Shown here: positions 1,138 through 19,850 of the stretch, piece after piece
How the letters are laid out: every line of letters begins with the position of its first letter
Position numbering within the stretch: the first letter of the stretch is position 1
Source of the DNA: Burkholderiaceae bacterium
GTDB lineage: Bacteria > Pseudomonadota > Gammaproteobacteria > Burkholderiales > Burkholderiaceae_C
Direction: 5' to 3'
Assembly: GCA_026125795.1 (NCBI GenBank)
Contig: JAHCKM010000001.1
Coordinates: forward strand, 1,798,001 to 1,862,000
DNA length: 64,000 nucleotides
Program-made: the position numbers and the translations under genes
The notes under the pieces: generated by a model
What the model was told of the DNA's origin: nothing
The model's database searches: none
The model's input: the letters and a program-made list of their open reading frames with translations, nothing else

Positions 1138-2510
1138 GGCCGCGGTTCGGCTCGCTGCGCCTGCGGCTGCTGGGCGCCACGCTGGCGACGCTCGTCCTGG
1201 CGCTTGCCGGAGGGCATTGGTGGCTCACGGGCCTGTTTCGCGACCATGTGCTGCGGCAGTTCGACATCACCTTGTCGCAGCAGCTTGACCAGCTCGCGGC
1301 GCGTCTGGAGTTCGATGACCAGGGCCGTCCCGTCATCGGTCCGCGAGGCATGAGCGATCCACGCTGGGAGAAGCCGTACTCCGGCCTCTACTGGCAGGTC
1401 GAGGGACTCGTTGGCGATCCGGGCCGTCGCCACAGCGTCTTGCGCTCGCGCTCGCTGTGGGATGCCGAACTGCGTCTGCCCGACGATGCCCTGGCCGATG
1501 GCGCGGTGCACCGGCATGACATCGTCGGACCCCGGGGCGAGCGGCTTCGCGTCGTGGAGCGCTCGCTGCAGACACCCGCGCCAGCGGAGTCCCGATGGCG
1601 CCTGATCGTGGCGGGTGACATGCTCGATGCGGCTGCGGCCATCGATCGCTTCACTGGCGTGCTGGCGGCGTCGCTCGTCGGTCTCGGCGTGCTGCTGGCG
1701 CTTGCCGCGCTGGCCCAGGTCGCCGTGGGGCTGGCACCGCTCAAGGCCATGCAGCAGGGGCTGCAACGCGTACGGGAAGGTCGGGAGCAGCGCCTGGGGG
1801 GTCGGTTCCCGGCCGAGGTGCAGCCCCTCATCGACGAGTTCAACGGCGTGCTTGATCGAAACGCGGAGGTCGTGGCGCGCGCCCGGGCCCACGCGGGCAA
1901 TCTCGCGCATGCCTTGAAGACGCCGCTGGCCATACTCGGTCAGGCGGCACGCAAGGCCGGACCGTCCGAGTTCTCGGCGCTCGTGAACGAGCAGGTCCAG
2001 GTCGCAGAACGCCACATGCAGTGGCATCTCGCGCGTGCACGCGCGGCGGCCGCGCAGCGCATGCCAGGGCAGCGAACCTTGCTCGAACCCGTCCTGCGCA
2101 GTCTGCTGCGGACCATGGACCGGCTGCACGCCGACCGGCATCTGGACATGGGGGCCGACGACGTGTCGGCCGATCTCGCGTTTGCCGGCGAGGAACAGGA
2201 TCTGCAGGAGATGGTCGGCAACCTGCTCGACAACGCCTGTCGCAGCGCGCGAAGCGCCGTCGTTGTCCGGGCGTCACGGGAAGGATCGTGGCTGCGCATC
2301 ACCGTGGACGACGACGGATCCGGCATTGCACCCGAGCAGCGCGCCGAGGTACTGCAACGCGGCGTTCGATTGGACGAGGCCCGCACCGGCAGTGGGCTCG
2401 GTCTTGCCATCGTGGTCGATCTGGCCCGCTTGTATGGCGGCGATCTCACGCTGGACAGTGCCGACGCAGGCGGCCTCAGCGCACGGCTGTTGCTGCCCGC
2501 TGCGGGCTGA
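1134..2510 (+). CDS. Sensor histidine kinase of the PepSY-linked two-component system
   Basis: Protein of 458 residues. The GTG at 1134 overlaps the regulator's stop codon. One membrane helix lies near residues 10-30 (LGATLATLVLALAGG), a periplasmic sensing region near 31-170, and a second helix near 172-198. A linker leads to the H-box with the phospho-acceptor histidine in NLAHALKTPLAIL (about residue 257). The ATPase domain has an N-box (MVGNLLDNACRSA), DDDGSGIAPEQ and a GSGLGLAIV motif. The PhoQ/QseC-like architecture fits the upstream regulator. The sensory domain has no motif that I recognise. Confidence 0.92.
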   Translation: MRPRFGSLRLRLLGATLATLVLALAGGHWWLTGLFRDHVLRQFDITLSQQLDQLAARLEFDDQGRPVIGPRGMSDPRWEKPYSGLYWQVEGLVGDPGRRHSVLRSRSLWDAELRLPDDALADGAVHRHDIVGPRGERLRVVERSLQTPAPAESRWRLIVAGDMLDAAAAIDRFTGVLAASLVGLGVLLALAALAQVAVGLAPLKAMQQGLQRVREGREQRLGGRFPAEVQPLIDEFNGVLDRNAEVVARARAHAGNLAHALKTPLAILGQAARKAGPSEFSALVNEQVQVAERHMQWHLARARAAAAQRMPGQRTLLEPVLRSLLRTMDRLHADRHLDMGADDVSADLAFAGEEQDLQEMVGNLLDNACRSARSAVVVRASREGSWLRITVDDDGSGIAPEQRAEVLQRGVRLDEARTGSGLGLAIVVDLARLYGGDLTLDSADAGGLSARLLLPAAG

Positions 2511-2612
2511 GCGCGCGAGCGAGGCGCAGTCCGACGCACGTAACTCGACGCGATGCCGGATCCGATGGATGGAGCCGCATTGATGTCATCCATGACTCGA
2601 GAGGACAGGCTG

Positions 2613-3569
2613 ATGGAGTACACGAACTTGTTGGACGACCCTGAGGAGCCTGAGTACAGCCCGACCGAGCGGGCCGCCGCCGCATCACGCAGCACCTGGG
2701 TCAGCGTCGCCGTCAACCTGTTGTTGACCTCGACGCAGATCGTTGCCGGCGTCCTCACCAGGTCGCAAGGCCTGATCGCCGATGGCATCCATTCACTCTC
2801 CGACCTCGTGGCCGACTTTGTGGTGCTGCTGGCCAACCACCAAAGCCGCAAGGACGCCGATGCCGATCATCCCTATGGCCATCACCGATTCGAGACGGCA
2901 GCCTCGCTGGTGCTGGGCGCGCTGCTGCTGGCCGTCGGGCTCGGCATGCTCTGGTCGGCGTTCCTCAAGCTGGAGCAACCGGACGCCGTGCAGAAGGTCC
3001 ACGTCGCCGCACTGTGGGTCGCGGGCGGTGCCCTCGTCGCGAAGGAACTGCTGTTTCGCTACATGCTGACGGTGGCTAAGCGCGTCAAGTCGAGCATGCT
3101 CGTCGCCAACGCCTGGCATGCACGCTCCGACGCAGCATCCTCGCTCGTGGTCGGCGTGGGCATCGTGGGCAACCTCGCCGGCTATCCGATCCTGGACCCG
3201 ATCGCCGCGGCCATCGTCGGCTTCATGGTCGCCAAGATGGGCTGGGAGTTCGGCTGGGACGCGCTGCACGATCTGATGGATCGCGCGATCGACGACGAGG
3301 AGATCGCCGCCATTCGCAAGACCCTGGAAGAGACCTCCGGCGTACAAGGCGTGCACGACATCCGCACCCGCAAGATGGGCGACATGATCGTGGTCGACGC
3401 GCACATCGAAGTCGATGCCTCGCTCAGCGTGGAAGCGGGGCACGACATCGCCGTGCAGGCGCGAAGCCGTGTGATGCAGCGGCACCGCGTGCTCAACCTG
3501 ATGACGCACGTCGACCCCTGGCGACGCCCCGACCTGGATCACGCCGCCGTGGCCACGACGCAGGCTTGA
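2613..3569 (+). CDS. Cation diffusion facilitator (FieF/ZitB-like metal exporter)
   Basis: Protein of 318 residues. The ATG at 2613 is chosen because AGAGGACA lies just upstream; earlier in-frame ATGs at 2553 and 2583 would only add unconserved residues. It shows the CDF metal-site motifs DGIHSLSDLVADF and NAWHARSDAASSL in helices 2 and 5, a His/Asp loop (DADADHPYGHHRFE) and a C-terminal cytoplasmic regulatory domain (about 215-300). The family exchanges Zn2+, Fe2+ or other divalent metals for protons. Substrate specificity cannot be assigned. It is transcribed alone. Confidence 0.9.
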   Translation: MEYTNLLDDPEEPEYSPTERAAAASRSTWVSVAVNLLLTSTQIVAGVLTRSQGLIADGIHSLSDLVADFVVLLANHQSRKDADADHPYGHHRFETAASLVLGALLLAVGLGMLWSAFLKLEQPDAVQKVHVAALWVAGGALVAKELLFRYMLTVAKRVKSSMLVANAWHARSDAASSLVVGVGIVGNLAGYPILDPIAAAIVGFMVAKMGWEFGWDALHDLMDRAIDDEEIAAIRKTLEETSGVQGVHDIRTRKMGDMIVVDAHIEVDASLSVEAGHDIAVQARSRVMQRHRVLNLMTHVDPWRRPDLDHAAVATTQA

Positions 3570-3620
3570 GAGCCCCCGGTGGACACGAGCCACGCGTGCG
3601 GACCGATCATGGGCCCAGGC

Positions 3621-3782
3621 TCAGGTCATGTGCTGCGGCGGCATCTGCACCGAGGCGGCCTCGCCGGGATGGCGGTTCAGGGTCAGCGGCAGCGACACGA
3701 AGGCGGTGAAGACGACGGGGATCAACACGAGCAAGACGGTCCCGACGAAGCGGGCAAGGAATCGGTGCAGTTCGACGTGCAT
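3621..3782 (-). CDS. Small single-pass membrane protein, divergent from the decaheme operon
   Basis: Protein of 53 residues (MHVELHRF at the start, MPPQHMT at the end). The start at 3782 has GGAG at a good distance; a longer in-frame reading from 3896 would add an arginine-rich, unconserved extension. One hydrophobic helix (FVGTVLLVLIPVVFTAFVSLPL) follows a short basic head. No family was recognised. It lies head to head with the reductase/cytochrome operon at 3957, with an FNR-type box between them, so it may share that regulation. It could be a small accessory subunit. Whether it is expressed is unproven. Confidence 0.55.
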   Translation of the reverse strand: MHVELHRFLARFVGTVLLVLIPVVFTAFVSLPLTLNRHPGEAASVQMPPQHMT

Positions 3783-3870
3783 GTGGGGCTCCGGTGGGTT
3801 GCTCGATGCGTGGAGTATTCGGCGACGCACATGAACGCGGTCTGAACGAGGCGAGGCGCTGCTCGGGCCG

Positions 3871-3884
3871 TTGATGGTGGTCAA
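3871..3884 (+). promoter_or_regulatory. FNR/Dnr-type box before the reductase-decaheme operon
   Basis: TTGATGGTGGTCAA differs from the FNR consensus TTGAT-N4-ATCAA at one position. If it activates from -41.5, transcription would start near 3919, and the -10 hexamer would fall at 3907-3912, where CAGAAT (4 of 6 matches) is found. The operon's first codon is at 3957. The site also lies 89 bases from the start of the divergent small gene at 3782. This is a prediction from sequence and spacing. Confidence 0.65.
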
Positions 3885-3956
3885 GGGGGACGCCATGCCC
3901 GATGCACAGAATCAGGTCGTGCTCGGAGTCTCCCCCTGTTCGGTTCATACGCCCCA

Positions 3957-5189
3957 ATGACCGCGCCCCAGTTGCTCGCCTGGATCTCGGCAGCGCTGTT
4001 GCTGCAACTGGCTGCCGGCATCGCCTGGACGCTCTGGCGTCGAGCGGCGACGCCCGCAGTTGCGGAACCAGCGGCGGCGCCGCTCGCGAAGCGAGACGCG
4101 GGCTGGAACGGATGGCGCGAGTTCCGCGTCGTCCGGCGCGAATACGAGGATCCGGCGCAGACGCAGTGCTCGTTCTACCTGCAGCCGGTCGACGCGCAGT
4201 CGTTGCCGCCGTTCAAGCCCGGTCAGTTCTTGACGTTCTCGCTGGACGTCATGGCCCAAGGGAACGACGCGGCTGCGAGTACCCGCCCGATCACGCGCTG
4301 CTACTCGCTGTCGGATCGTCCCGACCCGGCGCACTACCGGGTGACGATCAAGCGCGTGCCGCCACCGGTGGACCACCCCGAGTTCGACCCCGGGCTGTCG
4401 TCCAACCACTTCCACGACCATGTGCAGGTCGGCAGCGTGTTGCGGGTGAAGGCACCTTCCGGGCACTTCTACATCGATCCGGATCCCGGTGTGCCGGCCG
4501 TGCTGATCGGGGGCGGCATCGGCGTGACGCCCATGATGAGCATGCTTCGCTGGTGCCTGGCCCGGCAGCCGCAGCGCACGCTGCACTTCTACTACGGGCT
4601 GCGCAACAGCCGCGAGCATGCGTTCAAGGCGCAGCTCGAGGAACTGGCGACGGCCCATCCGTCGTTGCGGCTGAACGTGGTCTACAGCCGCCCCGAGACG
4701 ACGGATGAAGCGGGCCGCGACTACCAGCACCACGGACACGTGGCCGTAGAACTGCTGCGCCGAACGCTGCCCCATGGCCGGCACCAGTTCTACGTCTGCG
4801 GACCGCCGGCCATGATGCAGACGCTCGTTCCCGCGCTGGCCGAATGGGGCGTGCCCGTCGCCGACCTTCACTACGAGGCGTTTGGTCCGGCGTCGGTCAA
4901 GCTCCCGGGCGCCGCACCAGCCGAAGCCGCCACGAAAGTCGACGTGCAGTTCCGGCGCTCCGGCCGAACACTGCAGTGGGACGGGAGCGATGGGTCGCTG
5001 CTCGACTTCGCCGAGCGTCATGGCATCGCCGTCGAATCCGGTTGCCACTCCGGCGGGTGCGGCAGTTGCGAGACCCGCCTGCTCGAAGGCTCGGTGCGCT
5101 ACGAACACGCACCGGACCACGATGTCGCCGCCGGGCACTGCCTGCTCTGTGTCGGACAGCCCGCCACCGCCTTGGTGCTGGAGGCCTGA
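3957..5189 (+). CDS. Membrane-anchored FAD/NAD(P)H reductase with C-terminal 2Fe-2S domain
   Basis: Protein of 410 residues. A single N-terminal helix (LLAWISAALLLQLAAGIAWTL) is followed by WRR, which places the rest in the cytoplasm by the positive-inside rule. An FAD-binding barrel of ferredoxin-reductase type (about 55-180) has RCYSLSDRP and a flavohemoglobin-like NHFHDHVQVG segment. The NAD(P) domain (about 180-310) has GGGIGVTPMM and YVCGPPAMM. A plant-type ferredoxin domain (about 325-410) has CHSGGCGSC and a distal CLLC, giving the four cluster ligands. There is no globin domain, so it is not a flavohemoglobin. Its stop codon overlaps the start of the next gene. It probably takes electrons from NAD(P)H to the iron-sulfur cluster and on to the membrane protein that follows. 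Confidence 0.85.
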   Translation: MTAPQLLAWISAALLLQLAAGIAWTLWRRAATPAVAEPAAAPLAKRDAGWNGWREFRVVRREYEDPAQTQCSFYLQPVDAQSLPPFKPGQFLTFSLDVMAQGNDAAASTRPITRCYSLSDRPDPAHYRVTIKRVPPPVDHPEFDPGLSSNHFHDHVQVGSVLRVKAPSGHFYIDPDPGVPAVLIGGGIGVTPMMSMLRWCLARQPQRTLHFYYGLRNSREHAFKAQLEELATAHPSLRLNVVYSRPETTDEAGRDYQHHGHVAVELLRRTLPHGRHQFYVCGPPAMMQTLVPALAEWGVPVADLHYEAFGPASVKLPGAAPAEAATKVDVQFRRSGRTLQWDGSDGSLLDFAERHGIAVESGCHSGGCGSCETRLLEGSVRYEHAPDHDVAAGHCLLCVGQPATALVLEA

Positions 5190-5773
5190 TGCCATTGAAG
5201 GCCCGGCTCTTGCGGCGCGAGGTGCTGCCTTTCGTGGCGAGCTTTGCGCTGCTGGCCGTCGTCGCCTTGGCGCTCGACGGTGTGCTGCACCTGCTGAACC
5301 TGCTGTGGATCGGCCGCTGGCTCGGCATTCCGGGCACCCTGCTCATCATCGGCTCCACCGCCTATTCGCTGCGCAAGCGCAAGCTCATCCGAAGCGGCCA
5401 CCCGGCCCAGTTGCTGCGCTGGCATGAATTGCTCGCCTGGCTGGGCTCGCTGCTGGTGCTGGTGCATGCCGGCGTGCACTTCAATGCCATCCTCGGTTGG
5501 CTCGCGGTGTGGGCGATGCTGATCAACGTCGGCAGCGGCCTGACCGGCAAGTTCCTGCTCGACCGCTCCCGCCGGCGCCTGGAGGAAGCCCGGCAACACA
5601 TGCGTGCGCGCGGCCTGCCTGAGGCCGAACTCGAGGAACAGCTCTACTGGGACAGCCTGACCTTCGACGCCGTCAAGCAATGGCGTGTGGTGCACTTCCC
5701 GATCACGCTGGCGTTTGCCGTGCTGGCCACGGCACACATCGTGGCCATCTTCCTGTTCTGGGGCTGGAGGTGA
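5189..5773 (+). CDS. Putative heme-b membrane protein (b561/ferric-reductase-like), electron transfer
   Basis: Protein of 194 residues; its ATG overlaps the preceding TGA. About four hydrophobic helices are seen: FVASFALLAVVALALDGVL, GIPGTLLIIGSTAYS, LLAWLGSLLVLVHAGVHF with WLAVWAMLINVGSG, and a last one FPITLAFAVLATAHIVAIFL. Histidines sit within or beside them (RWHELL, VHAGVH, VVHFP, TAHIV), as in diheme cytochromes b. A charged amphipathic loop rich in Arg and Glu lies near residues 125-150. I infer heme b from the histidine pattern; no firm family match is claimed. Placed between a cytoplasmic reductase and a periplasmic multiheme cytochrome, it is well suited to carry electrons across the membrane. 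Confidence 0.7.
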   Translation: MPLKARLLRREVLPFVASFALLAVVALALDGVLHLLNLLWIGRWLGIPGTLLIIGSTAYSLRKRKLIRSGHPAQLLRWHELLAWLGSLLVLVHAGVHFNAILGWLAVWAMLINVGSGLTGKFLLDRSRRRLEEARQHMRARGLPEAELEEQLYWDSLTFDAVKQWRVVHFPITLAFAVLATAHIVAIFLFWGWR

Positions 5774-6675
5774 AGAAGCGCCCCGTCCTGTGGATCGTCG
5801 TCACGCTCAACCTGGTGGTGCTGGTCGCGCTCGCCTTCGTCTATCCGCACCTGATGGTGAGCCCGGGTCCGCTGGTGAAGGGCCACGAGACGCTGGCCAC
5901 CGATTGTTTCGCATGCCATTCGGCCTTGCGGGGTGCCTCGACACGGCGCTGCACCGAATGCCATGCCGTGGCCGATGTCGGCCTGAAGACGACCAAGGGG
6001 GTGCCGATCCCGACGCGCACCGTCAAGGTCTCGTTCCACCAGGAGCTGGTCGAGCAGGACTGCATGGCCTGCCACAGCGACCATCAGGGCCCGAAGGCCA
6101 CCAAGCGCAGCCGCAAGCCGTTCTCGCACGCACTGCTGAAGGTTGCGGTGAAGGACCAGTGTTCGTCATGCCATGCCGTGCCGAAGGACACCGTGCACCG
6201 CGACATCAAGTTGGAGTGCAGCCAATGCCACGGCGACAAGGCGTGGAAGCCGGCGCACTTCGACCACAAGCTGCTGGCGCCGGTCGTGCTCGACCGTTGC
6301 GAGAGCTGCCACAACGCGCCGAACGACCGCATGCACCGTCAGACCCAGGGTGGCTGCAAGTCGTGCCACAAGACCGATGCCTGGAAGCCCGCGACCTTCG
6401 ACCACGACAAGTACTTCGTGCTCGACCGCGACCACCAGGCCCCGTGCGAGACTTGCCACAAGAACAACGACTACAGCCGCTATACGTGCTATGGATGCCA
6501 CGAGCACTCGGAAGCGAAGGTGCGCGCTGAACACCTCGAGGAGGGCATCCGCGACTTCGCGAACTGCGTCGAGTGCCACCGCGATCCGCGTGCGGAGCCG
6601 CAGAAGGGCGGAGGACGGGAGCACGGAGGACGGGAGCACGAAGGACGAGAGCGCGGCAGACGCGAGCGAGATTGA
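5770..6675 (+). CDS. Decaheme cytochrome c, membrane-anchored, periplasmic
   Basis: Protein of 301 residues with a GTG start overlapping the previous stop. After KKRP an N-terminal helix (VLWIVVTLNLVVLVALAF) would export the rest to the periplasm as an anchor or uncleaved signal. Ten CxxCH heme sites follow: CFACH, CTECH, CMACH, CSSCH, CSQCH, CESCH, CKSCH, CETCH, CYGCH and CVECH. Many extra histidines (such as FDHKLL and FDHDKYF) can serve as distal ligands. The repeated unit W-K-P-A-x-F-D-H resembles class III/c7-type multiheme proteins. The C-terminus is a hydrophilic Arg/Glu/Gly/His tail encoded by a short DNA repeat. It is probably the terminal electron carrier of the operon; its partner or acceptor is unknown. 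Confidence 0.88.
   Translation: MKKRPVLWIVVTLNLVVLVALAFVYPHLMVSPGPLVKGHETLATDCFACHSALRGASTRRCTECHAVADVGLKTTKGVPIPTRTVKVSFHQELVEQDCMACHSDHQGPKATKRSRKPFSHALLKVAVKDQCSSCHAVPKDTVHRDIKLECSQCHGDKAWKPAHFDHKLLAPVVLDRCESCHNAPNDRMHRQTQGGCKSCHKTDAWKPATFDHDKYFVLDRDHQAPCETCHKNNDYSRYTCYGCHEHSEAKVRAEHLEEGIRDFANCVECHRDPRAEPQKGGGREHGGREHEGRERGRRERD
6610..6654 (+). repeat. Three 15-bp tandem units coding the decaheme tail
   Basis: Two identical copies of GGAGGACGGGAGCAC and a third copy with three changes lie in frame. They encode the repeating GREH/GRERG tail of the decaheme cytochrome. Being a multiple of three, copy-number change would keep the frame. Confidence 0.8.
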
Positions 6676-6726
6676 CCCCGCGACGCCCGTCCTCGCGCAA
6701 GCCCTGACCCGTTGGAGACACAAGAC

Positions 6727-7149
6727 GTGAAGATCCTGATCGCTGCCGACGGCAGCGCCTACACCAAGCGCATGCTGGCCTTCATCGCGGCCCATGATGA
6801 GTGGCTCGGGCCTCGGCACAGCTACACGGTGCTCCATTGCGTGCCAGCGTTTCCGCATCGCGCGGCGGCTTTCGTGGACAAGTCGCAGGTGCAGTCGTTC
6901 TACCGGGACGATGCCGAGACCGTGTTCAGGCCGATACGCGTCTTCTTCAAGCGTCAACGCATGGCCGCAACATTCATCCACCGCATCGGGCCCGCAGGGT
7001 CGACCATCGCCAAGCTTGCCGAGCAGCAGCGGTTCGACTTGATCATCCTGGGCTCCCACGGCCACGGCGCTGTCGCCGGAGTGGTGATGGGTTCAGTGGC
7101 CACGAAAGTGGTCTCGCTGTGCGACACACCGGTGCTGTTGGTTCGGTGA
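6727..7149 (+). CDS. Universal stress protein (UspA family)
   Basis: Protein of 140 residues. The GTG at 6727 is chosen because TTGGAGA lies about ten bases upstream. It has the single Usp fold: the start KILIAADGSAYTKRM, and the ATP-binding signature near the C-terminus (LGSHGHGAVAGVVMGSVATKVV), matching G-2x-G-9x-G(S/T). In other denitrifiers Usp proteins help survival in oxygen-starved cells. The gene follows the decaheme gene by about 50 bases and may be read from the same promoter. Confidence 0.92.
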   Translation: MKILIAADGSAYTKRMLAFIAAHDEWLGPRHSYTVLHCVPAFPHRAAAFVDKSQVQSFYRDDAETVFRPIRVFFKRQRMAATFIHRIGPAGSTIAKLAEQQRFDLIILGSHGHGAVAGVVMGSVATKVVSLCDTPVLLVR

Positions 7150-7262
7150 CGGCTTCGGACGCCGCCGGCGCACACTGAGTACGTACCAGCCGTGGTGCAC
7201 AGCCCAGCCCGCGACGATGTCGTGACAGGGCACACCGCGGTCGTGCGCGGGAGCCCAGCGCC

Positions 7263-9728
7263 ATGAGTCGGCGCAACGTGCCGCTCGAGCGGCTGGCCAC
7301 GTTGCAGCCAGGCGCCCAGGGGCTGAGCACTGCCCAGGTCGAGACCCAGCGCACCTACGGTTTCAACGACATCGTGGCGCCGGCCGCCAGCGGCTGGCTC
7401 GTCGTCGCACGCGACACGGCGCGCGACCCGATGCTGTGGTTCCTGGTGCTGACGGCGGGCCTGTTCGGGCTGCTGGGACAGGTTGCCGAGTCGCTCACGC
7501 TGCTGGTGGCCATGGTGCCGCTGCTGGGCATGGATGCCTACCTGCATCGACGAACGTCCGCGTCCTCCGCCGGACTGGCGAGCCGGCTGGCCAGTTCGGC
7601 GCGGGTGCTGCGTGATGGGCAGTGGCGGGACATCCCGTCGAGGGAGCTGGTGACTGGCGACATGGTCGAGGTGACGCCGGGCGAGTACTTCCCCGCCGAC
7701 GGACTGCTGGTGTCCGGCACCGGCCTTCAGGTCGACGAATCGACCTTGACCGGCGAGTCCTTGCCGGTGGCCAAGCGCGCCCTCGAGTCTTCGGCGGCGC
7801 TGCCAGCCAGCGCCTCCGAGGAGTTCTGGGGCACCGCGGGCACACGCCTGCTGACGGGTACGGCCCAACTGCGCATCTTGTTCATCGGCGGCGAGACGCG
7901 CTATGGCGAGATCGTCCGTTCCGCCACCGAAGGCAACCACGCCGCGACTCCGCTGCAGAAGGCCATCGGCGAACTCGTGGCCGTGCTGCTTGGCGTGGCC
8001 ATCATGGTGTGCATCGTGCTCGCCGCGGTCAGGCTGTGGCAAGGCCACGGCTGGATCGACGCGCTGCTCAGTGCGGTGACGCTGGCCGTGGCCGCACTGC
8101 CCGAGGAGTATCCCGTCGTCTACACATTCTTTCTCGGCGTCGGAGTTTTCCGGCTGGCGCGCAAGAAGGCGCTCGTACGACGGGCGGTGGCGGTGGAGAA
8201 CATCGGTCGCGTCAGCTGCATCGTGTCCGACAAGACCGGAACGATCACCGCGGGCTCGCTAGCGCTGGCGCATCGGACGCCGGCCGCTGGATTAAACGAG
8301 GACTCGGTGTTGCAGGTCGCCGCATTGGCCGCGAGGCCCGATAGCGGCGATCCGCTCGACCAGGCCTTGCACGGCGCGGCAGGACCGCTGCCGCACGCGA
8401 CGAGGCTGGCCGACTTCCCGTTCACCGAAGGTCGGCGCCGCGAGACGGTGGTCTGGCGTTGGGCCGACGGGAAGGCGAGAGCCTTCACCAAAGGTGCCCC
8501 GGAGACCGTGCTGGCCACGTCTGAATTGTCCGAACTCGAACGAGCCGGCTGGCTGGCGCGGGTGGAGGAGTACGCACGATCCGGACACAAGGTCATCGGC
8601 TGCGCCCGGCGCGACATGCCCGCAGATGCACCCGCCGACCGCGAACCCGGAGGCGGGTTCGAATTCGCGGGCCTGCTGGTGTTCGAGGATCCGGTTCGCG
8701 ACGGCGTGCGCGAAGCCGTCGACGACTGCACGGCCGCCGGCATGCGCGTCATCATGGTCACGGGCGACCACCCGGCCACGGCGGTGGCCATCGCGCGCGA
8801 GATCGGGCTCGGCGGAGCACAGCCCCGGGTCATCGTCCTGGCGCCCGAGGACGATGCGGCGGCCGCGCTCCGCGCCCATGGTGACGTGCACGTGGTGGCG
8901 CGCGCCACACCGCCGCAGAAGCTGGCGCTGGTGCAGGCGCTGCAATCCGAGGGAGAACTGGTCGCCGTCACGGGCGACGGCGTCAACGACGTCCCGGCGC
9001 TTCGCCTGGCCGACATCGGCGTGGCCATGGGCGAGCGCGGCACGCGCAGCGCCCGCGAGGTTGCACCGGTGGTGCTGCTCGACGACAACTTCAGGACTAT
9101 CGTCGATGCGGTGGCCGAAGGCCGCCAGCTCTTCCAGAACCTGCGGCTCGCGTTTGCGTACCTGCTGCTCGTGCATCTGCCGCTCGTGATCGGTGCCGCC
9201 GTGATCCCGCTGATGGGCCTGCCTCTGTTGTTCCTGCCGATTCACATCGTGTGGCTGGAACTCGTCATCCACCCGACGGCAATGCTGGCGTTCCAGGATC
9301 TTCCGTTGGCAGGACCGCTCGCGCCGGTACGGCGCCATCGACGCGCACGGTTCTTTTCGCCTGGCGCCTGGGTGGCGATCGTCGTGGTCGGCGGGCTCGT
9401 GAGCGTGGCCGTGGTCTGGAGCTACCTTCACGCACTCGGCGCCGACCGAAACGTCGAGCATGCGCGCGCGATGGCCCTGACCGTTCTACTGGTGTCCAGC
9501 GCCGGAATCACGGCCGGGCTGACGAAGCTGCGCCAGGCCGCTGCGCGCTGGCTCGTCGTCGGGACGCTCGCATCGCTCGGCGTGCTCGTCCAGGTCCCCG
9601 GGATCAGCGGATTCTTGAATCTGCGGCCGCTGCACGGCACCGACGGTGCTCTGATGCTTGTGGTTTTCGCCGTGGTTGCGGCGATCTCCTCAGGGCTCGC
9701 CTCACGGTTGAGGCTGCGCCTAGACTGA
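7263..9728 (+). CDS. P-type cation-transporting ATPase (P2-like)
   Basis: Protein of 821 residues with an N-terminal cation-ATPase region (about 5-45), actuator motif TGES, phosphorylation motif DKTGTIT (about residue 325), nucleotide-binding KGAPE and hinge GDGVNDVPAL. About eight to ten membrane helices are present. The helix-4 transport motif is PEEYP rather than the PEGLP of calcium pumps or the CPC of heavy-metal pumps, so it belongs to a poorly characterised P2-related group; Ca2+, Mn2+ or monovalent ions are all possible. It sits 113 bases after the stress-protein gene and ends just before the convergent nar operon. Confidence 0.88.
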   Translation: MSRRNVPLERLATLQPGAQGLSTAQVETQRTYGFNDIVAPAASGWLVVARDTARDPMLWFLVLTAGLFGLLGQVAESLTLLVAMVPLLGMDAYLHRRTSASSAGLASRLASSARVLRDGQWRDIPSRELVTGDMVEVTPGEYFPADGLLVSGTGLQVDESTLTGESLPVAKRALESSAALPASASEEFWGTAGTRLLTGTAQLRILFIGGETRYGEIVRSATEGNHAATPLQKAIGELVAVLLGVAIMVCIVLAAVRLWQGHGWIDALLSAVTLAVAALPEEYPVVYTFFLGVGVFRLARKKALVRRAVAVENIGRVSCIVSDKTGTITAGSLALAHRTPAAGLNEDSVLQVAALAARPDSGDPLDQALHGAAGPLPHATRLADFPFTEGRRRETVVWRWADGKARAFTKGAPETVLATSELSELERAGWLARVEEYARSGHKVIGCARRDMPADAPADREPGGGFEFAGLLVFEDPVRDGVREAVDDCTAAGMRVIMVTGDHPATAVAIAREIGLGGAQPRVIVLAPEDDAAAALRAHGDVHVVARATPPQKLALVQALQSEGELVAVTGDGVNDVPALRLADIGVAMGERGTRSAREVAPVVLLDDNFRTIVDAVAEGRQLFQNLRLAFAYLLLVHLPLVIGAAVIPLMGLPLLFLPIHIVWLELVIHPTAMLAFQDLPLAGPLAPVRRHRRARFFSPGAWVAIVVVGGLVSVAVVWSYLHALGADRNVEHARAMALTVLLVSSAGITAGLTKLRQAAARWLVVGTLASLGVLVQVPGISGFLNLRPLHGTDGALMLVVFAVVAAISSGLASRLRLRLD

Positions 9729-11402: not shown

Positions 11403-12224
11403 TCAGGCATCGGCGCGGCGCGCCGCGATGGGGTGGGCCAGCGGCTCCGGCTGCGGCCGGGTCGGCAACGCCGCGCTGGCGGCTGCTGCCACGCCGCGCT
11501 TCGGCTGCAGGTGCCCGGCCGGCAGGTTGAGCCTGCGGCTGCGCACCACCTGGTACGGCCGCCACGCATAGGCCAGCGTCGCAAAGCCGCTCCACACGTG
11601 CACCAGGCGCGTGAACGGGAACACCAGGAAGATCGTCATGCCGAGGAACATGTGGGCCTTGAAGACCCAGCTCGCGTCGGCCAGCAGCTCGACGCCGCCG
11701 GCTCGGAACGTGACGACGCGCTGCGCCCACTCGGCCAGCTTCATCATCATCGCGCCGTCGAGATGCTGGGCCGACAGCGGGATCGTCGCCAGCCCGAGCG
11801 CGAACTGCAGCCACAGCAGCACCAGCAGCGCGATGTCGCTGGCTTTCGACGTGGCGCGGATGCGCGCATCGGCCAGGCGCCGGTGCAGCAGCAGCGTCAG
11901 GCCGATGAAGCCGAGCAGGCCGAACAGGCCGCCCGACACCATCGCCACGAGCTGCTTGTCGCCGGCGCTGATGAAAGGCTCGTAGACCATGTGCGGCGTC
12001 AGCATGCCGAAGCCGTGGCCGAAGAACAGGAACAGGATGCCCACATGGAACAAGTTGCTGCCCCAGCGCAGGCTGCCGGTGCGCAGCAGCTGCGACGAGT
12101 CGCTCTTCCAGGTGTACTGGTCGCGGTCAAAGCGGATCCAGCTGCCGACGAGGAACACCGTCAGGCAGATGTAGGGGTAGTAGCCGAACAGCAGCGTGTC
12201 GATCCACGGCGATGTCGTGTTCAT
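11403..12224 (-). CDS. narI: Respiratory nitrate reductase gamma subunit (cytochrome b)
   Basis: Protein of 273 residues with five membrane helices, e.g. YYPYICLTVFLVGSWIRF, LFHVGILFLFFGHGFGML and HMFLGMTIFLVFPFTRLVHVW. The histidines in FHVGILFLFFGH and AHMFLGM...RLVH match the positions that bind the two b-hemes in NarI. It oxidises quinol on the periplasmic side and passes electrons to NarH. The protein is longer than typical NarI (about 225-240) because of a hydrophilic C-terminal tail of about 40 residues. Its start overlaps narJ by four bases. Confidence 0.95.
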   Translation of the reverse strand: MNTTSPWIDTLLFGYYPYICLTVFLVGSWIRFDRDQYTWKSDSSQLLRTGSLRWGSNLFHVGILFLFFGHGFGMLTPHMVYEPFISAGDKQLVAMVSGGLFGLLGFIGLTLLLHRRLADARIRATSKASDIALLVLLWLQFALGLATIPLSAQHLDGAMMMKLAEWAQRVVTFRAGGVELLADASWVFKAHMFLGMTIFLVFPFTRLVHVWSGFATLAYAWRPYQVVRSRRLNLPAGHLQPKRGVAAAASAALPTRPQPEPLAHPIAARRADA

Positions 12225-12922
12225 GCCTGCACTCCTTGCGAGGCTTGCGGTGCGGGGCGCTTTGTGACGGATGTGCGAACGATCTGGATCGGCTGCGGCG
12301 TTCCCGGCTTGGACTGGCCGTTGGTGCTGCAGCCGCCGAAGGCGGGCGGCTCGGCCCAGGCCTCGTCGAGCGCGGGCTCCTCGGCCACGGGCACCGCCTG
12401 GACGCGCTCGCCGGCGAGCTCGAGCACCGCAGCGATCACCGAGGCGTAAGGGCTCTCGCGCTTGAGCAGCGCGCTGAAGATCGCGTTCAGGATGTGCGCC
12501 GTCTCGCCGAGGAACTCGCGCGCCGTGCGCACCGGCTGCATCGACGCGAACTCCAGCACCGCCGGCAGGTAGTCAGGCAGCTCGCCGGGCTCCAGCTGCA
12601 GTCCGGCGCGCTCGTAGGTCTGCTGCAGGTCGGCCAGCGCCGGGCCGCGCTCGCGCGAGTCGCCGTGCACGTGCTCGAACAGGTGCAGCGAGGTGGCGCG
12701 GCCGCGGTCAAAGGTGTCAACGTAGCGCGCTTCGGCTTCGTACGGGTCGGCCGCGGCGAGCTGGCGCGCGAACGCGATCAGCTCGGCCACGCGCTCGCCG
12801 CGCAGCGCCCGCTCGCGGCGCAAGGCCGTGAGCAGCTCGGGCAAGGCATCGCGCAACTCCGGCGCCGGATAAGACAGCAGGCGCGCCAGGACGCGCAAGG
12901 TGATGTGGGTGGTGGGTTTCAT
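12221..12922 (-). CDS. narJ: Nitrate reductase assembly chaperone (molybdenum cofactor insertion)
   Basis: Protein of 233 residues of the TorD/DmsD-type chaperone fold. The family signature YVDTFDRGRATSLHLFEHVH followed by GDSRERG is present near residues 68-95. NarJ binds the NarG N-terminus and holds it until the molybdenum and iron-sulfur cofactors are inserted and the complex attaches to NarI. The last 45 residues are Pro/Ala-rich and unlike the core. It starts ten bases after narH. Confidence 0.95.
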   Translation of the reverse strand: MKPTTHITLRVLARLLSYPAPELRDALPELLTALRRERALRGERVAELIAFARQLAAADPYEAEARYVDTFDRGRATSLHLFEHVHGDSRERGPALADLQQTYERAGLQLEPGELPDYLPAVLEFASMQPVRTAREFLGETAHILNAIFSALLKRESPYASVIAAVLELAGERVQAVPVAEEPALDEAWAEPPAFGGCSTNGQSKPGTPQPIQIVRTSVTKRPAPQASQGVQA

Positions 12923-12932
12923 GCTCGGTTGC

Positions 12933-14456
12933 TCACACCGTGGCCTTGATCGGGATCGTGCGGCGCTTCTTGCCGCCGAAGATCGATGTCTCGCTCGCGC
13001 CGTCGGAGCAGCCGTTGCCGAACGAGAAGCCGCATCCGCCGCGCAGGTCGAAGGCGTTCTCGGCGTACTCGCGGTGCGTGGTGGGGATGACGAAGCGGTC
13101 TTCGTAGTTGGCGATCGCCATCACCTGGTACATCGCTTCCACCTCGGCGGCCGTGAGGCCCACCTGCTTCAGCACCTCGGGCTTCTCCACGCGATCGACG
13201 TGCTTGCCGCGCTGGTAGGCGCGCATCGCCAGCATGCGTTCGAGCGCGCGCTCCACCGGGGCGGTGTCGCCGGCGGTCAGCAGGTTGGCGAGGTACTGCA
13301 CCGGGATGCGCAGCTGCTTGACATCAGGGATCTCGCCGTTGGCGCCGATGTGACCGGCGTTGGCGGCGGCGGTGATCGGCGACAGCGGCGGCACGTACCA
13401 GACCATCGGCAGCGTGCGGTACTCGGGGTGCAGCGGCAGCGCTACCTTCCACTCCATCGCCATCTTCCACACCGGGCTTGCCTTGGCGGCGGTCAGCCAC
13501 GCCTCGGGGATGCCGTCGGCGCGCGCCTGTTCGATCACCTGCGGATCGTTCGGGTCGAGGAAGATCTCGCACTGCGCCTCGTAGAGGTCACGGTCGCGCG
13601 GCGTGGTGGCGGCCTCGGCGATCCGGTCGGCGTCGTACAGCATCACGCCCAGGTAGCGGATGCGGCCCACGCAGGTCTCGGAGCACACCGTGGGCTGCCC
13701 GGCCTCTATGCGCGGGTAGCAGAAGATGCACTTCTCGGCCTTGCCGGTTTGCCAGTTGTAGTAGATCTTCTTGTACGGGCAGCCCGATACGCACATGCGC
13801 CATCCGCGGCACTTGTCCTGGTCGATCAGCACGATGCCGTCTTCTTCGCGCTTGTAGATCGAGCCCGAGGGGCACGACGCCACGCACGCCGGGTTGAGGC
13901 AGTGCTCGCACAGGCGCGGTAGGTACATCATGAAGGTGTTCTCGAACTGGCCGTAGATGTCCTTCTGCACGGCCTCGAAGTTCTGGTCCTTGGAGCGCTT
14001 GCTGAACTCGCCGCCGAGGATCTCCTCCCAGTTCGGGCCCCACTCGATCTTCTCCATGCGCTGGCCGGTGATCAGGCTGCGCGGGCGCGCGGTGGGCGCG
14101 GCCTTGCTCTCCGGCGCCGACTGCAGGTGGTCGTAGTCGAAGGTGAAGGGCTCGTAGTAGTCGTCGATCTGCGGCAGGTTCGGGTTGGCAAAGATGCGCA
14201 TCAGCAGCTTCCACTTGCCGCCCTGGCGCGGCTCGATGGAGCCATCAGGGTTGCGGATCCAGCCGCCTTGCCACTTGTCCTGGTTCTCCCAGTCCTTCGG
14301 GTAGCCGATGCCGGGTTTGGTCTCGACGTTGTTGAACCAGGCGTACTCCATGCCCGGACGGTTGGTCCAGACGTTCTTGCAGGTCACCGAGCAGGTGTGG
14401 CAGCCGATGCACTTGTCGAGGTTGAGCACCATGCCGATCTGGGCGCGGACTTTCAT
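12933..14456 (-). CDS. narH: Respiratory nitrate reductase beta subunit (iron-sulfur)
   Basis: Protein of 507 residues starting MKVRAQIGMVLNLDKCIGC; the open frame extends far upstream but that part lies antisense-style within narG's other frame. Cysteine groups CIGCHTCSVTC, CEHCLNPACVASC, CRGWRMCVSGC and CIFC...CSETC supply one 3Fe-4S and three 4Fe-4S clusters; the tryptophan in CRGWRMC marks the 3Fe-4S site as in E. coli NarH. It relays electrons from NarI hemes to NarG. The start overlaps the narG stop by four bases. Confidence 0.96.
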   Translation of the reverse strand: MKVRAQIGMVLNLDKCIGCHTCSVTCKNVWTNRPGMEYAWFNNVETKPGIGYPKDWENQDKWQGGWIRNPDGSIEPRQGGKWKLLMRIFANPNLPQIDDYYEPFTFDYDHLQSAPESKAAPTARPRSLITGQRMEKIEWGPNWEEILGGEFSKRSKDQNFEAVQKDIYGQFENTFMMYLPRLCEHCLNPACVASCPSGSIYKREEDGIVLIDQDKCRGWRMCVSGCPYKKIYYNWQTGKAEKCIFCYPRIEAGQPTVCSETCVGRIRYLGVMLYDADRIAEAATTPRDRDLYEAQCEIFLDPNDPQVIEQARADGIPEAWLTAAKASPVWKMAMEWKVALPLHPEYRTLPMVWYVPPLSPITAAANAGHIGANGEIPDVKQLRIPVQYLANLLTAGDTAPVERALERMLAMRAYQRGKHVDRVEKPEVLKQVGLTAAEVEAMYQVMAIANYEDRFVIPTTHREYAENAFDLRGGCGFSFGNGCSDGASETSIFGGKKRRTIPIKATV

Positions 14457-17400
14457 GTCTGTTCTCCCGCGACAGCTTGTTCGCCATCGAGCCAGTCGAT
14501 CTTTCTCATCTTTCGCACCACCACGAACTCGTCGCGGTTGGTGCCGATGGTTCCGTAGTAGTTGAAGCCGTAGCTGAGCTGCGCGTAGCCGCCGATCATG
14601 TGCGTGGGCTTGGTGACGATGCGCGTCACCGAGTTGTGGATGCCGCCGCGCTGGCCGGTGATCTCGGAGCCCGGCGTGTTGATGATCTTTTCCTGCGCGT
14701 GGTACATCAGCGTCATGCCCGGGTTGACGCGCTGGCTCACTACCGCGCGCGCCGCGATGGCGCCGTTGGCGTTGTAGAGCTCGATCCAGTCGTTGTCCTC
14801 GATGCCGGCCGCGCGCGCATCGTCCTCGCTCAGCCACACCACCGGTCCGCCGCGATTGAGCGTCAGCATCATCAGGTTGTCGGAGTAGGTGCTGTGGATG
14901 CCCCACTTCTGGTGCGGCGTGATGAAGTTGAGCACCACCTCCTTGTGGCCGTTGGGCTTGATGCCTTGGGTGCCGCCCACGGCCTTCAGGTCTACCGGCG
15001 GCCGATAGCTCGTGAACTCCTCGCCGAAGGCGCGCATCCACGGATGGTCCTGGTAGAACTGCTGGCGCCCGGTGAGGGTGCGCCAGGGAATCAGCTCGTG
15101 CACGTTGGTGTAGCCGGCGTTGTACGAGACCTTCTCGCTCTCCAGCCCGCTCCAGGTGGGCGAGCTGATGATCTTGCGCGGCTGCGCCTGCACGTCGCGG
15201 AAGCGGATCTTCTCGTCCTCGCGGTGCAGCGCCAGGTGCGCGTGCTCGCGGCCGGTGAACTTGGACAGCGCCTCCCACGCCTTGACCGCGACGTGGCCGT
15301 TGGTCTCGGGTGCCAGCATCAGGATCACCTCGGTGGCGTCGATGTCGGTCTCGATCTTGGCCAGGCCCTTGGTCGGCCCTTCGGTGTGCACCTTGCCATT
15401 GAGCTCGGCGAGCTGGCGCACCTCTTCGGCGGTGTTCCACGCGATGCCTTTGCCGCCGTTGCCCACCTTCTCCATCAACGGGCCGAGCGACGTGAAGCGT
15501 GCGTAGGTGGCGGGATAGTCGCGCTCGGCCACGGTGATCTGCGGCGCGGTCTTGCCCGGGATCAGGTCGACCTCGCCGCGCTTCCAGTCGAGCACGTCGA
15601 TCGGCTGGGCCAGCTCGCCCGGCGTGTCGTGCATCAGCGGCGTCAGCACCACCTCTTTCTCGACGCCGAGGTGGCCGGGGCACAGCTCGGAGAAGGTCTT
15701 GGCGAAGCCCTTGTAGATCTCCCAGTCGCTCTTGGCCTGCCACGCCGGGTCGACCGCGGTCGACAGTGGGTGGATGAACGGGTGCATGTCGCTGGTGTTG
15801 AGGTCGTTCTTCTCGTACCAGGTGGCGGTGGGCAGCACGATGTCCGAATACAGGCACGTCGTGCTCATACGGAAGTCGAGCGTGACGATCAGGTCAAGCT
15901 TGCCTTGCGGTGCCTCGTCGTGCCAGCGCACTTCCTGCGGTTTCGCGTCGTCGGGGCCCAGATCCTTGCCTTGCACGCCGTGGCTGGTGCCCAGCAGGTG
16001 CTTCAGGAAATACTCGTGGCCCTTGCCCGACGAGCCGAGGATGTTGGAGCGCCACACGAACATGTTGCGCGGCCAGTTGTCGGGATGGTCGGGGTCTTCG
16101 CAGCTCAGCTGCAGCGAGCCGTCCGTGAGGCCCTTGACCACGTGCGCCTTCACGTCACCCGCCGCGGCGCCCTCGCGCGCCACCTGCAGCGGGTTGGTCT
16201 TGAGCTGAGGCGCCGACGGCAGCCAGCCCATGCGCTCGGCGCGCACGTTGTAGTCGATCAGGCTGCCGCTGAACTCGCTCTTGTCGGCCAGCGGCGACAG
16301 GATCTCGGACACGCCGAGCTTCTCGTAGCGCCACTGGTCGGTGTGCGCGTAGAAGAAGCTGGTGCTGTTCTGCTGGCGCGGCGGGCGCGACCAGTCGAGC
16401 GCGAACGCCAGCGCGGTCCATCCGGTCTGCGGGCGCAGCTTCTCCTGCCCCACGTAGTGCGCCCAGCCGCCGCCGCTTTGCCCGACGCAGCCGCACAGCA
16501 TCAGCATGTTGATGATGCCGCGGTAGTTCATGTCGCAGTGGTACCAGTGGTTCATCGCCGCGCCGATGATCACCATCGACTTGCCGTGCGTCTTGTCGGC
16601 GTTGTCGGCAAACTGGCGCGCCACGGTGATGACCTGCGCGCGCGGCACGCCGGTGATCTTTTCCTGCCATGCGGGCGTGTAGGGCGCGTCGTCGTCGTAG
16701 CTCTTGGCGCCGTCACCGTGGCCGCGCTCGATGCCGTAGTGCGCGGCCATCAGGTCGAACACGGTGGCCACCAGCGTCTCGCGCTCGGCACCGGCCTTGC
16801 CGAGGCGGATGCGCCGCACCGGCACTTTGCGCACGAGCACGTCGCCGCCTTGCTGGTTGGCGTTGAAGTGCGGTGTGTCGATGCCGGCGAAGTAGGGGAA
16901 CGCCACGTCTTCCACTTGGTGCGGATCGGTTCCTTCGGTGACCGACAGGCACAGCTTCACGTCCTCGCCGTGGCGCGCTTCCTTGTTCTCCAGGTTCCAC
17001 TTGCCGGCGTCGGCGCGGCCGTCGGCGCCCCAACGGAAGCCGATCGAGCCGTTGGGCATCACGACGCGGCCGTTGGAGTCGAACGCGAGCGTCTTCCAGT
17101 CAGGGTTGTTGTCCTGGCCGAGCTTGCCGTTGAAGTCGCTGGCGCGCAGGTAGCGCTGGCTGGCCAATACCTTGCGGCCATCGGGCAGCGTCCGAGGCTC
17201 CAACGTCACCAGCATCGGCAGGTCGGTGTAGCGGCGCGCGTAGTCGTCGAAGTACGCCGAGCGCTTCTGAAAGTAGAACTCCTTCAGGATCACGTGGCCC
17301 ATCGCCATCGCGAGTGCCGCGTCGGTGCCTTGCTTGGGGTGCATCCACAGGTCGGCGAGCTTGCTGACCTCGGCGTAGTCGGGCGTGACCGCCACCGTCT

Positions 17401-18226
17401 TGGCGCCCTTGTAGCGCACCTCGGTGAAGAAGTGCGCGTCGGGCGTGCGCGTCTGGGGCACGTTGGAGCCCCAGGCAATGATGAAGGTGGAGTTGTACCA
17501 ATCGGCCGATTCCGGCACGTCGGTCTGCTCGCCCCAGGTCATCGGGCTCGACGGCGGCAGGTCGCAGTACCAGTCGTAGAAGCTCATCGACACGCCGCCG
17601 ATCAGCGACAGGTAACGCGAGCCGGCCGCGTAGCTCACCATCGACATCGCCGGGATCGGCGAGAAGCCGATGATGCGATCCGGGCCGTGGCGCTTGATCG
17701 TGTGGATGTTGGCCGACGCGATGATCTGGTTGACCTCGTCCCAGCTCGAGCGCACAAAGCCGCCCAGGCCGCGCTGGCGCGTCCATTCCTCCCGCGCGCC
17801 GCTCTCGACGATCGCGGCCCACGCATCGACCGGGCTCTTGGCCACCGCCAGTGCGGCGCGCCAGGCCTTGAGCAGGCGCGCGCGCACCAGCGGGTACTTG
17901 ACCCGGTTGGCGCTGTACAGGTACCAGGAGTACGACGCGCCGCGGGCGCAGCCGCGCGGCTCGTGGTTGGGCAGGTCGGGGCGCGTGCGCGGGTAATCGG
18001 TCTGCTGGGTCTCCCAGGTGACGATGCCGCCCTTGACGTAGATCTTCCACGAGCACGAGCCGGTGCAGTTGGTGCCGTGCGTGCTGCGCACGATCTTGTC
18101 GTGCTGCCAGCGGGCGCGGTAGGCGTCTTCCCAGGTGCGGTCTTCGCCGGTGGTGACGCCGTGGCCGTCGGCGAAGTTCACGCGCGGTTGCGAGAAGTGC
18201 GTCAGGCGGTCGAGAAAGTGGCTCAT
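14453..18226 (-). CDS. narG: Respiratory nitrate reductase alpha subunit (Mo-bisMGD catalytic)
   Basis: Protein of 1257 residues, the expected length. The N-terminal 4Fe-4S site of H-x3-C-x3-C type appears as HGTNCTGSCSW near residue 50, and the molybdopterin regions follow (e.g. GFSPIPAMSMVSYAAGSRY, and a conserved YNSTFIIAWGSNVPQTRTPD stretch). The C-terminal dinucleotide-binding domain lies about 1080-1230. No Tat signal peptide of cleaved type is visible, as usual for NarG facing the cytoplasm. It reduces nitrate to nitrite with quinol electrons. The gap to narK2 (18227-18423) carries a hairpin-rich repeat and may hold a separate narG promoter, but I see no convincing FNR site there. Confidence 0.97.
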   Translation of the reverse strand: MSHFLDRLTHFSQPRVNFADGHGVTTGEDRTWEDAYRARWQHDKIVRSTHGTNCTGSCSWKIYVKGGIVTWETQQTDYPRTRPDLPNHEPRGCARGASYSWYLYSANRVKYPLVRARLLKAWRAALAVAKSPVDAWAAIVESGAREEWTRQRGLGGFVRSSWDEVNQIIASANIHTIKRHGPDRIIGFSPIPAMSMVSYAAGSRYLSLIGGVSMSFYDWYCDLPPSSPMTWGEQTDVPESADWYNSTFIIAWGSNVPQTRTPDAHFFTEVRYKGAKTVAVTPDYAEVSKLADLWMHPKQGTDAALAMAMGHVILKEFYFQKRSAYFDDYARRYTDLPMLVTLEPRTLPDGRKVLASQRYLRASDFNGKLGQDNNPDWKTLAFDSNGRVVMPNGSIGFRWGADGRADAGKWNLENKEARHGEDVKLCLSVTEGTDPHQVEDVAFPYFAGIDTPHFNANQQGGDVLVRKVPVRRIRLGKAGAERETLVATVFDLMAAHYGIERGHGDGAKSYDDDAPYTPAWQEKITGVPRAQVITVARQFADNADKTHGKSMVIIGAAMNHWYHCDMNYRGIINMLMLCGCVGQSGGGWAHYVGQEKLRPQTGWTALAFALDWSRPPRQQNSTSFFYAHTDQWRYEKLGVSEILSPLADKSEFSGSLIDYNVRAERMGWLPSAPQLKTNPLQVAREGAAAGDVKAHVVKGLTDGSLQLSCEDPDHPDNWPRNMFVWRSNILGSSGKGHEYFLKHLLGTSHGVQGKDLGPDDAKPQEVRWHDEAPQGKLDLIVTLDFRMSTTCLYSDIVLPTATWYEKNDLNTSDMHPFIHPLSTAVDPAWQAKSDWEIYKGFAKTFSELCPGHLGVEKEVVLTPLMHDTPGELAQPIDVLDWKRGEVDLIPGKTAPQITVAERDYPATYARFTSLGPLMEKVGNGGKGIAWNTAEEVRQLAELNGKVHTEGPTKGLAKIETDIDATEVILMLAPETNGHVAVKAWEALSKFTGREHAHLALHREDEKIRFRDVQAQPRKIISSPTWSGLESEKVSYNAGYTNVHELIPWRTLTGRQQFYQDHPWMRAFGEEFTSYRPPVDLKAVGGTQGIKPNGHKEVVLNFITPHQKWGIHSTYSDNLMMLTLNRGGPVVWLSEDDARAAGIEDNDWIELYNANGAIAARAVVSQRVNPGMTLMYHAQEKIINTPGSEITGQRGGIHNSVTRIVTKPTHMIGGYAQLSYGFNYYGTIGTNRDEFVVVRKMRKIDWLDGEQAVAGEQT

Positions 18227-18420: not shown

Positions 18421-18423
18421 ACA

Positions 18424-19812: not shown

Positions 19813-19850
19813 GACGAGGTCTCCTTGGGTGTTTCAGGTGGTTGTTCGGG

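Follow-up and report, generated by a model that had tools for sequence, protein, structure and literature searches.

The window analysed here, a 64,000-nucleotide stretch of a Burkholderiaceae bacterium genome (GenBank assembly GCA_026125795.1, contig JAHCKM010000001.1, positions 1,798,001 to 1,862,000 of the forward strand), contains three overlapping genes at 3957-6675 that encode a reductase, a small membrane protein, and a multiheme cytochrome. The reading that we favour, with moderate rather than high confidence, is that this trio specifies a complex that exports electrons from NAD(P)H to the periplasm at low oxygen, in a layout like that of NOX enzymes and ferric reductases (NOX/FRE). 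Gene order, domain content, conserved histidines, charge bias at the membrane, and an FNR-type box upstream are the observed features on which this reading draws. The features of the locus are as follows.

3871..3884: FNR/Anr-type box TTGATggtgGTCAA with a single mismatch, 72 bp upstream of the gene 1 start codon
3957..5189, plus strand: gene 1, membrane-anchored FAD/NAD(P) reductase with a C-terminal plant-type 2Fe-2S domain, 410 amino acids
Parts of gene 1, plus strand: anchor at about 3969-4040, NAD domain at 4503-4823, 2Fe-2S domain at 4959-5153
5189..5773, plus strand: gene 2, five-helix membrane protein, 194 amino acids
5770..6675, plus strand: gene 3, predicted periplasmic N-anchored decaheme c-type cytochrome, 301 amino acids, ten CxxCH
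About 6178-6321, plus strand: gene 3 segment with hemes 5 and 6, missing in octaheme relatives

All three genes lie on one strand, with overlaps of 1 base (genes 1 and 2) and 4 bases (genes 2 and 3). The ATG of gene 2 uses the final base of the gene 1 TGA, and gene 3 starts at a GTG, with a GTGA overlap with gene 2. An overlapping reductase, small membrane protein, and ten-CxxCH cytochrome are thus present as the initial annotation of the window described them, and the association recurs across many proteobacteria with order and overlap kept. Named genomes were scanned and gave 517 relatives; at the best 80 loci, which were fetched, all three genes stand in order in 77 cases and gene 3 is present in every case. 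The overlap between genes 2 and 3 measures 4 bases at 77 of the 80 and 10 at 2 (at L051 the start was mis-set), and gene 1 overlaps gene 2 in 48 of 77 loci, as judged by script-chosen starts. Within the family, gene 2 matches at E 0.001 in 43 of 399 genomes and has a close relative (51-100% identity, the window's own included) in 20. In all 20 genomes, gene 2 is immediately preceded by gene 1 and followed by gene 3, with the strand kept; at L002, L013, and L021 a contig end cuts one partner. The family set of 20 and the set of 80 loci share members (G405:C10/L034; G063:C2/L078), and their counts are not to be summed. Across the phylum, 24 of 398 genomes hold a gene 2 relative at E 1e-59 or better, and the 20 phylum loci fetched include gene 3 in 20 and some match to gene 1 in 13, among them a remnant at L128 and partial matches at L119 and L123. 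Metagenome bins L068, L113, L094, L105, and L109, in which the cluster occurs, bear the names Bordetella parapertussis, Klebsiella pneumoniae, or Asaia bogorensis, which look like misnamings of environmental bins. One cultured carrier is Rubrivivax gelatinosus strain IM 151 (L112).

Gene 1 fits the order of an FNR-like reductase with a plant-type 2Fe-2S centre (PaaE/Hcr-like), in which FAD and NAD domains are followed by a C-terminal Fer2 domain. Pfam matches comprise NAD_binding_1 (PF00175, 2.5e-22) and Fer2 (PF00111, 6.8e-11, residues 335-399), FAD_binding_6 (PF00970) falling 0.4 bit under its cut-off. Its closest relatives in NCBIfam and the PDB are reductase domains of flavohaemoglobins (3ozu in the PDB, E 1.9e-51). 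In an alignment of 27 gene 1 sequences, RCYS, the glycines of GGxGxTP, CGP, and the four Fe-S cysteines C363, C368, C371, and C398 are invariant. Lysine and arginine residues average 0 on the N side of the anchor and 3.3 on its C side, and because this C-side excess holds in 27/27 sequences, the catalytic part of gene 1 is predicted to be cytoplasmic, a placement that the charges support.

Gene 2 provides the putative passage across the membrane. H79, H93, H97, H169, H183, S116, G117, G120, and W165 are invariant in all 66 sequences aligned, and H34 is kept in 65 of them. Four of these histidines form two H-x13-H pairs, H79/H93 on helix 3 and H169/H183 on helix 5, with an SGxxG motif on helix 4. 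The pairs, which the initial annotation had singled out, are therefore unvarying among homologues (66/66), and they are predicted to bind two b hemes. The protein has five hydrophobic segments, and its basic loops are 2-3 (about 6 lysines and arginines) and 4-5 (about 9). This positive-inside pattern supports a topology with the N-terminus inside and the C-terminus outside, which would place H79/H169 near the cytoplasmic face and H93/H183 near the periplasmic face.

No Pfam or NCBIfam model matches gene 2 above its cut-off. Candidate families tried and rejected were DUF4405 (weak match at E 0.098; probability 15.5 in an alignment comparison with 13 sequences), FxsA (18.8 bits against a cut-off of 40), cytochrome b561 (probability 2.1, 15 sequences), and Ferric_reduct, PF01794 (no Pfam match; hhalign probability 0.5 and E 0.11 against 25 members). 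The Ferric_reduct, DUF4405, and b561 comparisons used part of the fetched loci, with two frames of more than 600 amino acids left out. Searches of PDB sequences gave no significant relatives for gene 2 or gene 3. A different result was obtained with the membrane proteins of PCC3 systems, which comprise a porin, an extracellular multiheme cytochrome, a membrane protein of ~300 amino acids, and a periplasmic cytochrome with 21-27 hemes (He et al., 2017; PMC5566968, PMC10734462). The gene 2 profile, built on a 66-row alignment, aligned over residues 15-154 with 12 longer PCC3-type membrane proteins at an hhalign probability of 98.4 and E 1e-14; these are the 13 found minus one of more than 600 amino acids, they were found via gene 2 similarity, so that the test is not fully independent, and their PCC3 status was checked by cluster content in three genomes only. 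All 13 longer proteins carry two H-x13-H pairs, W-x3-H-x13-H, and SGxxG. Gene 2 shares the five helices, the pairs, and SGxxG, and lacks the helix 3 tryptophan of W-x3-H (in the window, W78 abuts H79). Weaker hidden Markov model matches of the PCC3 kind extend down to 3.3e-14 among 398 phylum genomes. By these profile and motif comparisons, gene 2 is a member of the PCC3 inner-membrane protein superfamily.

This kinship raises an alternative that we consider rather unlikely, namely that the complex is linked to quinones. Gene 2 would then be a quinol-oxidising or quinone-reducing cytochrome b, gene 3 its acceptor or donor, and gene 1 either an accessory through which NAD(P)H can also reduce these b hemes or a later addition. 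The reductase is nevertheless directly upstream at 77 of the 80 best loci, where it overlaps gene 2 in 48 of 77, a regularity that argues against so marginal a role. In its favour, several loci have genes 2 and 3 without the reductase domain, implying another electron partner there, and the text available from He et al. (2017; PMC5566968) proposes quinone exchange for PCC3 inner-membrane proteins, as quinone-active cytochrome b. For both reasons, the exclusion of quinol as a donor in the initial annotation is unproven.

The loci that lack the reductase are informative in their own right. Gene 1 is missing from three of the 80 best loci: L088 and L094 hold the anchor alone, and L105 has a transposase-like frame. 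That frame (L105:1-357) lies directly 5' of gene 2, at the usual place of the reductase gene. An anchor-profile search of upstream peptides at ten loci without full gene 1 found the anchor kept without the reductase at L094, L088, L124, L131, and L128 (E 1.8e-9 to 4.8e-4; best control peptide 0.47), a match at L127 (E 0.59) not being counted. L128 additionally retains a C-terminal gene 1 remnant of 47 residues. Gene 1 was not found close upstream at L122, L132, and L133, and at L130 too little sequence remains before the contig end. Assembly error is possible at the five loci that keep the anchor, L088 and L094 being metagenome bins and the other three (L124, L128, and L131) draft genomes from one family. 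Because the anchor is retained at five loci without the catalytic domain, it suggests itself as a structural working part of the membrane complex; and because the anchor persists there together with genes 2 and 3, other electron donors are possible at those loci.

Gene 3 matches class III and c7 cytochrome models in Pfam. Its ten CxxCH sites, noted in the initial annotation, turned out to be a variant and do not define the module: among the 80 loci, 56 encode eight hemes, 17 ten, and two seven, and 5 are truncated by contig ends. The seven-count loci are L047, at a contig edge, and L051, whose start was set too late by the script. The ten-heme form corresponds to the insertion of one two-heme repeat. 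The 29 gene 3 sequences aligned share nine invariant histidines that lie outside CxxCH, against eight core hemes; the additional pair of hemes in the ten-heme form is accompanied by histidines of its own, H143 and H166 (9/29 sequences). Because there are enough such invariant histidines for all core hemes, the alignment suggests bis-histidine ligation and a conduit role for gene 3, no open catalytic heme being evident. Lysine and arginine are in excess on the N side of the gene 3 anchor in 28/29 sequences, and this bias supports a periplasmic position for the hemes. The membrane topology given in the initial annotation therefore stands for both the reductase and the hemes, in each case as a prediction from charge bias.

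We see little prospect that the trio is a dedicated NAD(P)H-driven enzyme in which gene 3 would act as terminal reductase for a small molecule (nitrite, hydroxylamine, sulfite, peroxide, or a metal ion). Multiheme reductases are common, and the metal transporters found among the neighbours of the trio (see below) suggest a metal as substrate. Against this, two histidine ligands are apparently available for each core heme, with no evident free site, and gene 3 matches no catalytic multiheme family over cut-off in Pfam or NCBIfam. The NapC/NirT cytochrome model is also absent from the Pfam and NCBIfam matches of gene 3 up to E 1. Assignment to the DmsE/MtrA family TIGR03508 was rejected at 29.3 bits against a cut-off of 192.2.

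In the favoured reading, the three proteins would constitute one inner-membrane complex. Hydride from NAD(P)H would reduce FAD, from which single electrons would pass to the 2Fe-2S cluster and then to the b heme on the cytoplasmic side (H79/H169), the b heme on the periplasmic side (H93/H183), and the bis-histidine c hemes of gene 3. The latter would serve as a conduit to periplasmic acceptors, with periplasmic cytochromes or a PCC3 conduit as candidate final acceptors. Such a complex would have the NOX/ferric-reductase layout, but with a membrane part from the PCC3 family, with a 2Fe-2S centre located after the flavin and before the b hemes, and with a multiheme cytochrome in place of oxygen or iron as the first acceptor. 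Outward electron flow lowers the membrane potential, and its purpose would therefore more probably be redox balance or the reduction of periplasmic or extracellular acceptors than energy conservation. Heme binding, complex formation, the direction of flow, regulation in the cell, and the acceptor are all predicted here from sequence. A single transmembrane line toward the periplasm, as claimed by the initial annotation, is the better reading of the direction, which is nonetheless inferred only.

The opposite direction, in which periplasmic electrons from metals, sulfur compounds, or an extracellular conduit would pass from the cytochrome over the b hemes into the cell to reduce NAD(P)+, appears very improbable. 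Flavin reductases of the gene 1 kind are reversible in principle, but reducing NAD+ with the usual electron donors of the periplasm is an uphill step, which the membrane potential opposes. The three genes include no evident coupling subunit, and the FNR-type box points to low oxygen, where NADH would presumably be in excess. What favours inward flow is that PCC3-like clusters holding relatives of genes 2 and 3, one of them in the window genome, are proposed for electron uptake in iron oxidisers in the available text of the sources (PMC5566968, PMC10734462).

The upstream regions are consistent with a low-oxygen role for NAD(P)H-driven export. Matches to TTGATN4ATCAA were sought in 73 upstream regions (72 loci and the window), 8 of the 80 loci being left out because gene 1 was absent or short or because fewer than 300 bases lay upstream. 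The best match has at most one mismatch in 27 of the 73 regions, compared with 0.45 in shuffles and 0/216 coding stretches, and at most two in 42 (shuffles 3.65; coding stretches 8/216); 31 regions are without a good FNR-type box. The 64-kb window has four boxes within one mismatch of this motif, that at 3871 included, where 0.25 are expected. Two more of these, at 27049 and 27079, stand just before a COX1 gene that is followed by FixP-type and FixG-type genes, and COX1 with such genes is a classical FNR target. A Crp-family helix-turn-helix model has eight matches in the genome, two of them within the window. As far as promoter sequences can tell, an FNR-type regulator probably activates the trio when oxygen is low. 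A set of microaerobic respiration genes occupies window positions 24661-33166, comprising a P-type ATPase, COX1, FixP-like and FixG-like genes, and a Crp/FNR-type regulator at 32372-33166. The trio promoter region is shared with a small divergent membrane-protein-like frame (3621-3896, minus strand), which has no Pfam match.

Several observations weigh against export by a dedicated complex. The module is patchy (20/399 family and 24/398 phylum genomes), and a close gene 2 was absent from all five other genomes of the genus that were searched. The reductase is not obligatory, since gene 1 is matched in only 13 of the 20 fetched phylum loci. Quinone exchange is the role proposed for PCC3-type proteins in the available text (PMC5566968), and flow may be reversible, into NAD(P)+. 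Structure prediction lent no help: it yielded no model of the complex and only a poor one of the cytochrome, and a fold search with the gene 2 model (mean pLDDT 62.7, pTM 0.47) gave no match at E 0.001. The best fold matches of this poor model were BAR domains, the NOX5 transmembrane domain (E 3.4) and cytochrome b561 appearing only at E 3.4-3.6.

A fixed gene neighbourhood was sought around the trio, and the neighbours were found to vary. Relatives of ten chosen proteins were surveyed within 6.5 kb of the trio at the 80 loci, with 40 regions of 20 kb from 7 genomes as controls. Relatives were counted at 24 loci for a P-type ATPase, 14 for an OmpR-type regulator, 9 for cytochrome b561, 8 for VIT1, 6 for SulP, 5 each for CDF and PepSY, 3 for GDT1-like, 1 for Usp, and 0 for carbonic anhydrase. 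Each query gave 0/40 in the controls, one control regulator match just missing the cut-off (1.05e-8). Because queries were chosen for recurrence or presence in the window, loci are related, and controls were not genus-matched, the p-values of this survey are too small; GDT1, Usp, and carbonic anhydrase show no enrichment near the trio at the 80 loci. Metal-handling transporter families recur near the trio. For example, a VIT1-type iron/manganese transporter occurs at L081, L092, L096, L098, L104, L105, L106, and L108, all with alphaproteobacterial titles, and is adjacent to the trio in 7 of the 8. The neighbouring ATPase matches only the general P-type model TIGR01494 over cut-off in NCBIfam. 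In the window itself, nitrate respiration genes likely lie beside the trio, the minus-strand frame at 11403-12224 presumably encoding a NarI-type subunit. Beyond this frame, the region 11403-23915 holds two MFS transporters and a PilJ-HAMP histidine kinase.

A more far-reaching version of the export reading would join these observations. The trio would be an uncharacterised NAD(P)H:multiheme-cytochrome oxidoreductase, NOX/FRE-like by convergence on the PCC3 family, induced by FNR when oxygen is scarce, and exporting excess reducing power, which in PCC3 species would reach Fe(III)/Mn(IV) via the outer-membrane conduit, while the neighbouring Fe/Mn-type transporters handle the released metal. 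Taken as a whole, this version is quite unlikely. The well-known routes to periplasmic multiheme cytochromes, such as those through NapC and CymA, start from quinol. If the export reading is true, a recurrent module fed by NAD(P)H without quinone would give electrons another way into periplasmic, and possibly into extracellular, transfer chains; it would spend membrane potential rather than conserve it, and it might account for the disposal of surplus reducing power by proteobacteria at low oxygen. In addition, a membrane family without a Pfam match is now tied to the PCC3 proteins of iron-oxidising bacteria, which gives both a testable role.

Among known systems, DmsE/MtrA offers a decaheme periplasmic cytochrome with weak partial similarity to gene 3, but gene 3 is membrane-anchored, usually has eight hemes, and scores far under the family cut-off. 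In MsrPQ with Fre, a membrane b-heme protein receives NAD(P)H electrons from a separate flavin reductase and passes them to a periplasmic partner, as is envisaged for the trio. There, however, the partner is a molybdenum enzyme, and the reductase is soluble and without Fe-S. NOX/FRE proteins (PF01794) are closer in plan: a cytoplasmic FAD/NAD(P) module feeds two b hemes, and electron flow is outward. Their hemes sit on H-x13-H pairs of helices 3 and 5 (PMC5566968), as predicted for gene 2. The trio differs from them in its lack of a profile match, its separate polypeptides, its extra 2Fe-2S centre, and its multiheme cytochrome as acceptor.

In PCC3, as in the trio, a periplasmic multiheme cytochrome adjoins a membrane protein of this superfamily, one that has five helices, two H-x13-H pairs, and SGxxG. 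PCC3 differs in a longer membrane protein (351 amino acids in this genome), the 21-27-heme cytochrome, the extracellular multiheme cytochrome, and the porin, and its parts as listed in the available descriptions include no NAD(P)H reductase. The PCC3-like cluster of the window's own genome, locus L212 (G000:C3 184000-202000), reads as follows.

8278-9333, minus strand: H-x13-H protein
6345-8372, minus strand: 24-heme cytochrome
4351-6381, minus strand: 22-heme cytochrome
1622-4942, minus strand: long porin-like frame (by appearance only)

The PCC3-like relatives L213 and L214 encode 24+38 and 24+34 CxxCH. The porin-like frame of L212 finds L213 and L214 and has no match in the 80 trio loci at E 1e-4, a search that a diverged or distant porin would escape. 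Nor is there an extracellular-type cytochrome (at least 10 hemes) besides gene 3 at the 80 loci, several of which are short; another frame with at least 4 CxxCH is present at only 2 of them, with 5 at L112 and 4 at L062. Lacking, at these loci, both a porin match and a second frame above 5 CxxCH, the trio is, judged by gene content, not a PCC3 complex. A second gene 2 match of the PCC3 type is present in 7 of 20 trio genomes and in 23 of 379 others (Fisher p 2.6e-4, a value that includes shared ancestry and weak matches not all checked singly).

The initial annotation knew of no named system with this make-up. That holds for the exact trio, in that the literature found neither names nor tests a reductase, membrane protein, and multiheme cytochrome together (supplementary tables lay outside the search), but similar clusters are mentioned. 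He et al. (2017; PMC5566968) describe clusters, mostly porin-less and left without a named function in the text available, in which a short five-helix H-x13-H protein is encoded beside a multiheme cytochrome and usually a further redox protein. This make-up fits the trio, although the membrane protein gene follows the cytochrome gene there and precedes it here. By description, the trio is likely among the loci in Supplementary Table 6 of that study. Most of the short proteins are reported there, in the same portion of text, to lack significant PCC3 or PCC4 homology (PMC5566968); the kinship of short and long H-x13-H proteins indicated by the profile comparisons thus appears to add to the account of He et al. 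(2017).

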